Part shown: positions 2,046 to 12,714 of the stretch, one piece after another | Numbering within the stretch: position 1 is the stretch's first letter | Layout of the letters: every line of letters starts with the position of its first letter | Assembly: GCA_012837285.1 (NCBI GenBank) | Contig: DURJ01000158.1 | Location: 1 to 34,711 of the forward strand | DNA length: 34,711 nucleotides | Direction: 5' to 3' | Source of the DNA: Bacillota bacterium | GTDB taxonomy: Bacteria > Bacillota > DTU030 > DUMP01 | Notes under the pieces: model-generated | Database searches by the model: none | Seen by the model: the letters and a program-made list of their open reading frames with translations, nothing else | Told to the model about the DNA's origin: nothing | Position numbers and translations under genes: made by a program

Positions 2046-2245
2046 GGTTGCAGAATTATCCCCGAAGCCAAGCTTAGCCCACATGCAAAAGAGCGAGGCG
2101 AACGAGGGAAAACCGCCGATGCATGTCCCCACCTTTTAGGGTGGGCAAGTCGAGCCCCGATAGGGGCGAGTTCAGAGGCGGCCCGAGAAAGCCGAGCTCG
2201 GTCGTCCTGAAGGGCACCGCAGTGCGAGGGGATAACTTGCAGCCC
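2046..2245. repeat. 200-bp palindrome-ended structured repeat, copy 1
   Basis: The left end GGTTGCAGAATTATCCCC (2046-2063) and the right end GGGGATAACTTGCAGCCC (2228-2245) are imperfect inverted repeats, so a transcript would close with a ~17-bp stem. Inside are shorter hairpins, for example CCCACC-TTTTA-GGGTGG near 2128-2144 and AGCCCC-GATA-GGGGC near 2153-2168. The same end sequences and several interior blocks (GCTTAGCCC; CAAA.GAGCG; GAGCTCG.TCGT; an AGGGC-like block; GGGGAT) recur in the same order at 5727-5901. It lies between the convergent 3' ends of two genes. No ORF in it looks real. It could be a non-autonomous mobile element or a structured RNA; I do not recognise the family. Confidence 0.7.
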
Positions 2246-3034: not shown

Positions 3035-3185
3035 TAGTCCCTCCTGCTGGTTTTGTCCCATTTTATCACAACAGTGGCTACTTAATCCAACCGAAAAAAA
3101 TACGGCCGGCCCGAAGGCCGACCTGAACACGTGGGCTAGTGTATTATTCGCAGTGCAGAAAGTGATGGGTAGGGGCGGTGTCGCA

Positions 3186-3349
3186 CTTCGCGAGACCCTT
3201 CGCTTCGCGAGACCCTTCGCTTCGCTCAGGATGACAAATGTAGGGACGCTCAGGATGACAAACGCTGAGACGCTAAGGATACGAATGTAGGAACGCTCAG
3301 GATGACAAACGCTGGGACGCTCAGGATACGAATGTAGGAACGCTCAGAA
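3186..3349. repeat. Tandem ~24-bp repeat array (CGCTCAGGATGACAAA type)
   Basis: After two copies of a 17-bp unit (TTCGCTTCGCGAGACCC), about six ~24-bp units follow. Two variants alternate: one contains ACGCTCAGGATGACAAACG and the other ACGCTCAGGATACGAATG. A further single unit lies at 3513-3536 and provides the 3' end of spoIIR. The core resembles a dispersed CTTCGCTTCGCTCAGGATGACA sequence that I recall from many Clostridia and Chloroflexi genomes. No protein or promoter is evident. The rest of 3035-3522 holds only the imperfect hairpin listed next. Confidence 0.75.
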
Positions 3350-3422
3350 TCATTACGCGCTGCCGCACCAACGATAAACGAATCTGGTTTTCATTTCAAT
3401 GGCCGTCTAAGGACCATGTTGA

Positions 3423-3492
3423 CTGATAGTCGGTGGTATGAAGATGGTAGAGACGACCATCTCTAGTTAGGTGTGCCCATCGGCTGACTACA
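3423..3492. repeat. Imperfect 70-bp hairpin between the repeat array and spoIIR
   Basis: CTGATAGTC at 3423-3431 pairs with GACTACAG at 3485-3492, allowing one bulge. Inside, GATGGT-AGAGACG-ACCATC forms a second stem. There is no T-tract on either side, so it is not a classical terminator. It may be a degenerate small element; I cannot name it. Confidence 0.35.
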
Positions 3493-3522
3493 GATTCATA
3501 GCGATGATAAATGCTGGGACGC

Positions 3523-4206
3523 TCAGGGTGACAAACAGGAAAGAAGGGCCCGCGCCCGGGGCCGTACCTTCTCCCATACCTCCACCACTTTGAACCGGAT
3601 CTCCACCTCGTTTTCAGCCGCAGCCGGCTCCTCCGGCTTTGTCTTACCGGCGGCCATAACTCGCTGTGCCTCTTCAGCCAAACCGGGCGGTACGTCCATT
3701 ACCGGGGTAGCCTCCTGCCCTGAACTGCCGTTCACAAAACACAGCGGTGGGAACAACACGCACCACCAATTGTGCCCTTGTCCGTCCCCCAAGACTATTC
3801 TCAGCGCCCGGTAGCGGCCCGCCGGAAGGGTTATATTTTCATATCTTCGCTCAGGAAAAGAATAGGTCCCCAGCTCAACCTGACTCTGGTACAGTGCTCC
3901 GGCCTGCATCAAGACTCGGTCTGCAATCTCTTCCACTTGATTCAAATGCCGACTGAGCACTCGCTCGGCGTCCCGTTCCGTGGCAGTGGTACTAAACAGC
4001 GGAGCCGTCTCTTCAACAATGGCATCACGCACCTTAAGCTTCAGGGCTTGATCCCGGGGATGATCGCTATGGGCCATAATATGCAGCCGAATCAGTTCCC
4101 GTCCGGCCGGACTGACGGCCCAGACCGGCACATAGGCTTGATAGAGCAGGAACAGTGCTACGGCAAAGGCAGTGCAAACCAGAGTTAAACGGAGTTTCCC
4201 GAGCAC
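3523..4206 (-). CDS. spoIIR: Stage II sporulation protein R (SpoIIR)
   Basis: SpoIIR is the forespore-made signal secreted into the intermembrane space, where it triggers SpoIIGA to process pro-SigE in the mother cell. The 227-residue protein has an N-terminal membrane/signal segment (LTLVCTAFAVALFLLYQAYV), then the family signatures LIRLHIMAHSDHPRDQALKLKVRDAI, LGTYSFPERRYENITLPAGRYRALRIVLG and the very conserved HNWWCVLFPPLCFV. The GTG start at 4206 follows AAGGAGG at seven bases. A SigF-type promoter lies at 4299-4327, as known for spoIIR. The extreme C-terminus and stop codon (residues LSP then TGA) are supplied by a stray unit of the nearby tandem repeat, so the tail may be a recent replacement. 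Confidence 0.95.
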   Translation of the reverse strand: MLGKLRLTLVCTAFAVALFLLYQAYVPVWAVSPAGRELIRLHIMAHSDHPRDQALKLKVRDAIVEETAPLFSTTATERDAERVLSRHLNQVEEIADRVLMQAGALYQSQVELGTYSFPERRYENITLPAGRYRALRIVLGDGQGHNWWCVLFPPLCFVNGSSGQEATPVMDVPPGLAEEAQRVMAAGKTKPEEPAAAENEVEIRFKVVEVWEKVRPRARALLSCLSP

Positions 4207-5654: not shown

Positions 5655-5726
5655 CGAAGGAGCCCTGCCCCTACAAAACACTACCGTGGGTGGCCCAATA
5701 AATGCTACCACCAAGCAAAGGTCTCT

Positions 5727-5901
5727 GCGGTTGCAGGACCATCTCCAACGCGTGGCTTAGCCCTTATTCAAAGGAGCGCAGACGAGCGAGGAAAGGGGGG
5801 GAGAGGTTGTCTGAGCGAAGCGAGTTGCCTGGAGCCCCCGAGGGAGTCAAGCTCGTTCGTTCTAAGGGGCGCTACGAAGCGTGGGGATGGTCTGCAACCG
5901 C
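5727..5901. repeat. Palindrome-ended structured repeat, copy 2 (175 bp)
   Basis: The ends GCGGTTGCAGGACCATCTCC (5727-5746) and GGGGATGGTCTGCAACCGC (5883-5901) are near-perfect inverted repeats. They match the ends of the copy at 2046-2245. The closing stem differs between copies by paired changes (AATTATCCCC with GGGGATAACTT in copy 1; GACCATCTCC with GGGGATGGTC in copy 2), which suggests selection for base pairing. It sits between the recD2 stop codon (5912) and its terminator (5625). The interior is more diverged and shorter by about 25 bp. Confidence 0.7.
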
Positions 5902-5911
5902 ACTGTGACCA

Positions 5912-12465: not shown

Positions 12466-12714
12466 AAAAACGCCCCCCGTCCCTGAAAAACAGGGACGAG
12501 AGGCGTTTCCCGCGGTACCACCCATATTGGCGCAAGCCAAACAGCTAACGCCCACTTGCGATACGCTAACGAGTATCACCCGTACGGGCCTACTTTACTT
12601 CGGCCGTCCGCTTCGGGATGGATTCCAAGAACTGCTTCACCGGCTCGCACCTGGCGCCGGCTCTCTTTAGAAGACAAGTCCTTGTACTTGTTCCCGGCAT
12701 CGCTCTTAATATTG
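12466..12714 (-). ncRNA. T-box leader RNA, serine (UCC specifier)
   Basis: The leader has all main T-box parts in order on the minus strand. Stem I carries an AGTA motif near its base, the GGTGCGAGCCGG distal segment, and a specifier loop GGAATCCATCCC with TCC (Ser) at 12620-12622. The canonical T-box TGGGTGGTACCGCGGG lies at 12508-12524, followed by the attenuator. Uncharged tRNA-Ser binding would stabilise the antiterminator and allow transcription of the aminotransferase-serA operon. The specifier is assigned by alignment with the known GAA-codon-AUC pattern of T-box loops. Confidence 0.93.
12467..12505 (-). terminator. T-box attenuator terminator
   Basis: A long stem (ACGCC, CTCTC opposite GGGGG, and GTCCCTG paired with CAGGGAC) with a T-rich loop is followed by TTTTTA. 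The 5' arm overlaps the end of the T-box sequence, as expected for mutually exclusive terminator and antiterminator. Confidence 0.88.

Follow-up and report, generated by a model that had tools for sequence, protein, structure and literature searches.

A dispersed, MITE-like repeat family with a conserved and probably RNA-based core in Bacillota and other bacterial phyla

Small bacterial mobile repeats are usually viewed as decaying junk within one genus, and the interiors of MITEs usually decay. To our knowledge, repeats of the Correia/NEMIS and ERIC type are each confined to one genus or family. These and similar elements are small mobile repeats that fold as RNA and are dispersed and palindromic (PMC2229807). 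The Beta-proteobacterial repeat element (BRE) of Bordetella is 75–91 bp long, often lies in tandem arrays, has features of a mobile element, and overlaps an expressed small RNA (PMC3110155).

Here, we describe a family of non-coding elements of about 200–320 bp, two copies of which lie in a 34,711-nucleotide stretch of Bacillota DNA (contig DURJ01000158.1, hereafter the window). Like bacterial MITEs, these elements are short and non-coding with paired ends, and in one Bacillota family (f45) they show target duplications and ends matching those of an insertion sequence (IS); they differ from MITEs in that the ends are exchanged but a structured core persists across phyla. They share with Correia/NEMIS and ERIC a dispersed, palindromic character and RNA secondary-structure motifs, but their sequence and architecture differ and their hosts belong to several phyla. 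BRE, compared here by its description only, is likewise a Betaproteobacterial repeat, and copies of the present family also occur in Bordetella-labelled MAGs. Beyond this possible link to BRE, searches of the open literature (subscription journals and preprints were outside the scope) found no description of the family, which is apparently unnamed.

HEARO and the omega RNAs of IscB and TnpB resemble the family as structured RNAs tied to mobile DNA, and an omega-RNA-like or HEARO-type RNA had been raised as a mere possibility for the window copies. The family differs in having paired inverted ends and no recurring associated nuclease gene among the commonest neighbor families, and the suggestion is not supported. 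Rfam returned no match at gathering score for the window element, 20 Bacillota loci, or 15 other loci, and none at a lax E-value, with weak U4 and gut-2 hits below cut-off. No IscB/TnpB-type gene was seen beside copies among the 25 commonest of 160 neighbor families.

The window copies and the anatomy of the core

In copy 1, the left arm of the end stem (GGTTGCAGAATTATCCCC, 2,046–2,063, plus strand) pairs in the fold with the right arm (GGGGATAACTTGCAGCC, 2,228–2,244, plus strand). Between them lies the core (2,085–2,210, plus strand; 100 bits with covariance model R1), with a helix bearing G·A-type internal loops at about 2,091–2,199 and, at 2,126–2,149 (plus strand), an optional extra hairpin that copy alignments place in some members of the family only. 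Copy 2 has its arms at 5,726–5,746 and 5,883–5,902 and its core at 5,768–5,865 (all plus strand; R1, 66 bits); by alignment, this core falls into a second subfamily, whose inner helix differs, and is closest to the copy at L011. R1 is a core model of 102 positions built from 19 copies, all of them from Bacillota and both window copies included. The two copies reported by the sequence-only reading were thus located with their arms, and R1 detected both cores on the plus strand. That reading had also seen no credible open reading frame, and in agreement with it, a 109-aa plus-strand frame across copy 2 had no Pfam match. It further placed copy 2 in the 3′ untranslated region of recD2, before the terminator. 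The position holds, as copy 2 follows the recD2 stop and precedes a terminator-like site (5,655–5,631, minus strand), called by consensus scan alone. The copy 2 core reads on the plus strand, however, so transcription from recD2 would yield the complement of the conserved strand.

Both copies folded far better than dinucleotide shuffles (z = −5.4 for copy 1 and −5.0 for copy 2), with none of 200 shuffles folding equally well, and the antisense of copy 1 reached a z of only −2.2. The core forms a long hairpin that is interrupted repeatedly by G·A-type internal loops and ends in a TTTGAG-stem-CGAGTT tip. Read along the core strand, the left arm of the end stem is followed by GAGC-GA-GGC-GA-NN-GA-GGG-AAAA-helix and the TGTYTGAG-stem-CGAGTT tip, and the 3′ half continues as helix-CCC-GA-NN-GA-GCC-GA-GCTC to the right arm. 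GA steps face GA steps across the helix. Among 19 diverse copies, the adenines of these steps are mostly invariant, while the two-base helices between them vary as pairs (AC:GT, GC:GC, GT:AC). From this sequence pattern, we infer that the facing GA steps may form tandem sheared G·A pairs.

Elsewhere in the window, we noted a T-box leader (RF00230, 119.5 bits; 12,489–12,709, minus strand) upstream of aminotransferase-like and D-3-phosphoglycerate-dehydrogenase-like genes. The intergenic region beside spoIIR (about 3,165–3,545) holds degenerate direct repeats of the GACGCTCAGGATGACAAA type with no visible relation to the element.

Covariation and the strand that carries the fold

The 19-copy alignment gave a covariation score of 0.251, against 0.03–0.07 with partners slid. 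Across 99 copies from several phyla, in an alignment fitted to R1 and hence biased towards structure, all 24 of 24 core pairs showed double compensatory changes (463 cells), 93% of cells paired, and the score was 0.517, against at most 0.075 with partners slid. Two tests are independent of that alignment. The first concerns the end stem, which lies outside R1 and in which the sequence-only reading had noticed compensating changes between the window copies. This observation extended to 15 copies: left arms, chosen by eye like the right arms, paired at a mean of −25.7 kcal/mol with their own partners, compared with −21.0 kcal/mol with the right arms of other copies (permutation p = 5e-5), and end stems that differ between lineages keep their pairing. 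The second concerns copies at one orthologous locus in genomes G006 and G007, whose separately computed folds have 48 pairs in common; pairs present in one fold only, mostly near indels and the outer end, are omitted from this count. Five of the common pairs have changed, four by double compensatory change and one to a wobble, although conversion from another copy may have contributed there. A copy in G007 contains a separate segment of about 115 bp with inverted ends of its own (GTCAGGTTAGCGC/GCGCTGAACCTGAC; L064, about 1,385–1,500; L240), which is absent from the orthologous G006 copy.

Paired double changes are an established product of template switching in quasi-palindromes. Hairpin-directed template switching or gene conversion could therefore make the arms match with no selection for the fold. 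Such a process would, however, erase non-Watson-Crick positions, whereas the GA loops persist on one strand and retain conserved adenines, and it does not predict an asymmetry between sense and antisense. We regard it as highly improbable.

That asymmetry was consistent. Of the two strands, the core strand gave the more stable fold in 91 of 99 copies, a fraction that overstates independence because copies are related within lineages; the corresponding figure for flanking stretches was 51 of 109. Mean fold energies over the 99 copies were −92.9 kcal/mol for the core strand and −84.5 kcal/mol for the complement, and the sense strand had the advantage in the majority of copies within every lineage group. 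The count of helix mismatches was not decisive: 65 G·U against 60 A·C, becoming 65 against 29 only when one variable column was dropped. With DNA parameters, the sense strand was also the more stable in 92 of 99 copies, and this agreement in direction leaves room for a folded single-stranded DNA. The fold might then be selected as the substrate of an HUH-type transposase or another hairpin-binding enzyme, and it fits this proposal that Ramlibacter copies end in hairpins without terminal inverted repeats and that a REP-like hairpin ends copies in G006. Against it, the sole lineage with a supported mechanism of movement (see below) uses a DDE element, which has inverted repeats and is flanked by target duplications, and no transposase family recurs beside copies among the 25 commonest families listed. 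We judge selection on DNA improbable. Selection on a folded single strand, most likely RNA, combined with mobile DNA is the reading that accommodates the structural data and the mobility data alike.

Distribution and genomic context

In its own genome (a 2.17-Mb draft), BLAST with copy 1 found 13 places, with more in the same genus and family, and R1 found 15 copies. Of 13 genomes of the class, 11 carried R1 copies, up to 21 each, and across the phylum 28 of 399 sampled genomes did. The sequence-only reading had staked its element on further copies and on covariation, and it came through clearly, as both were found. A 23-base degenerate pattern for the tip hairpin matched at least 111 stretches in public genomes. 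Among the matches listed, most were Betaproteobacteria (Dechloromonas, Azonexus, Niveibacterium, Ramlibacter, and Aquabacterium), the others being Nitrospirae, Bacillota, and one Bacteroidota MAG. R1 also matched most of these stretches, over a longer span than the pattern, and found further copies in 14 of 16 tip-pattern genomes, as well as copies in the Bordetella-labelled MAGs. Cross-phylum R1 matches had modest E-values (about 1e-2 to 1e-8). Homology between phyla is thus proposed on shared architecture and these modest E-values, and some lineages may have converged on a similar hairpin. No viral contig carried two exact patterns, and plasmids gave no match to the core, their sole match being the 3′ hairpin of a Betaproteobacterial copy, in Pasteurella and Ilyobacter. 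In Betaproteobacteria and Nitrospirae, a 3′ hairpin of the CTACTTTCTTTTGGCGAAGCAAAAGAAAGTA type lies behind copies (L092, 2,050–2,110; L334–L340) and on its own matches replicons of Pasteurella multocida and Ilyobacter. Genomes of the Azonexus/Dechloromonas type often carry copies as divergent pairs about 200 bp apart (L092, 1,702–2,017; L096, L152, L102, and L146); the pair in L092 sits between rnfD-like and rnfC-like genes.

All 46 copies examined were intergenic. Relative to neighboring genes, defined by a simple longest-ORF rule with element-overlapping frames set aside, 18 were sense, 12 antisense, 10 convergent, 5 divergent, and 1 unresolved, a distribution that was not significant. A scan of 106 neighboring ORFs found no recurring protein family among the 25 commonest of 160 families. 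At some Betaproteobacterial loci, flanking genes are common to different species. Presence is patchy, with copies in 5 of 61 genomes of one Betaproteobacterial family, and both copy number and presence vary strongly between close relatives.

These data bear on the proposal that the family serves its hosts as a functional non-coding RNA or cis-regulatory element, dispersed mainly through duplication and horizontal transfer, for which the transposon ends of one family would be a secondary acquisition. Such a role would agree with a core conserved across phyla while ends differ, with the structure maintained at the G006/G007 locus, and with the flanking genes held in common in Betaproteobacteria. 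We nonetheless consider it unlikely, given that no conserved neighbor gene was found among those 25 families, that the 46 copies follow no clear orientation rule, and that close relatives differ so much in copy number and presence.

Ends, mobility, and the history of insertion sites

Evidence for mobility came from f45 (genomes G055 and G364), in which the ends of full copies read GATTCYGCTGAAAAA...TTTTTCAGCRRAATC and 7-bp direct repeats of the form TANNNAG lie on either side. These repeats were perfect in five of eight intact small elements and had at least six of seven matches in six of the eight; swapped flank pairs reached six matches in 20%, a level explained by preference for the insertion site itself. 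In a related complete genome, G303, 1.66-kb IS copies carry the 15–20 bp ends of f45 and a 7-bp duplication of the same kind. They encode a 466-aa DDE-type transposase of the ISNCY family (NF033593, E = 1.3e-149). The TANNNAG duplications together with the matching IS ends indicate that the f45 copies moved, most simply as MITEs mobilized in trans by an ISNCY-type transposase; G055 itself showed no autonomous copy. Two small elements (L299 and L300) have f45 ends without the core, so the core may not be needed for movement. The two possibilities offered by the sequence-only reading, a functional RNA and a mobile element recognized through its hairpin, both drew support: for RNA, from the strand-specific covarying structure, and for mobility, in one lineage, from duplications and IS ends.

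Two candidates for long, protein-carrying copies were rejected: in G055 (L293), the 3.7 kb between paired ends contain host transporter genes, and in G364 (L295), a 1.3-kb span consists of an unrelated ORF flanked by two copies, partial or full. We also observed that ISNCY copies in G303 were inserted beside GTTTCAATCCCTCGTAGGTAG-like sequence resembling CRISPR repeats (L306 and L308 flanks).

Terminal inverted repeats are found in the window copies and most Bacillota lineages, with ends specific to lineage: GGTTGC.GGNCCATCCTC in the window's genus, TGCCGGAAGTACCCC in family f2, and CTAACCGGTGTTAATC in family f43. Copies in Ramlibacter show no terminal inverted repeats; they extend from GGCCGAGCGCAGCGATGGCC to a 3′ hairpin and GCTACAA. 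Given these lineage-specific ends and the Ramlibacter copies, no single transposase explains all members. Neither a target duplication nor a partner IS was identified for f2, f43, or Ramlibacter, and no target duplication was seen by eye around copies of the window's genome. Copies in G006 (L231, L233, and L235) have a REP-like hairpin (GGTAGACGCCCATGCCGCC..., on the opposite strand) at one or both flanks.

Whether the window copies were gained or lost at their sites was approached through relatives. The full copy is absent at both window sites in the syntenic regions of G001, G002, and G004, but G004 may retain a remnant: its ybaK site holds TTATTCAAAAGAACGCGGACGAGC, which resembles the 5′ part of the core and makes loss at that site possible. 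At another locus (L009/L016), an apparent empty site is more plausibly a deletion within the left arm, and a third locus holds a truncated remnant. The G004 fragment, the left-arm deletion, and the truncated remnant make the direction at the window sites uncertain; the copies may reflect gain or loss.

Taking these data together, we favor, with a probability of about two in three, a MITE-like family of short non-autonomous mobile elements built around a conserved structured RNA, transposed in trans and with its fold under selection. Transposases recognizing the paired ends would move the element as DNA in trans, a step supported in the one Bacillota family and presumed for the window's genome. 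The middle would be a structured RNA domain, conserved and read from a single strand, and selection would keep its structure after insertion. The core would act when transcribed, most likely by offering its G·A motifs for binding by a host protein or by helping the surrounding transcript to tolerate the insertion. A distinctly unlikely variant has the RNA core itself driving spread, riding any available transposition machinery (a DDE system using inverted repeats in one lineage and perhaps hairpin ends of the HUH type elsewhere) and working as RNA in distant hosts.

If spread were driven by the core, the family would represent a cross-phylum mobile RNA independent of transposition mechanism. 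For RNA biologists, the family would offer a new structured RNA that is easy to search for and has a putative G·A architecture, and for transposon biologists, a MITE whose cargo is conserved while its ends are exchanged. Preservation of the inner fold by paired changes across phyla, and also at a fixed locus after insertion, suggests an RNA worth keeping.
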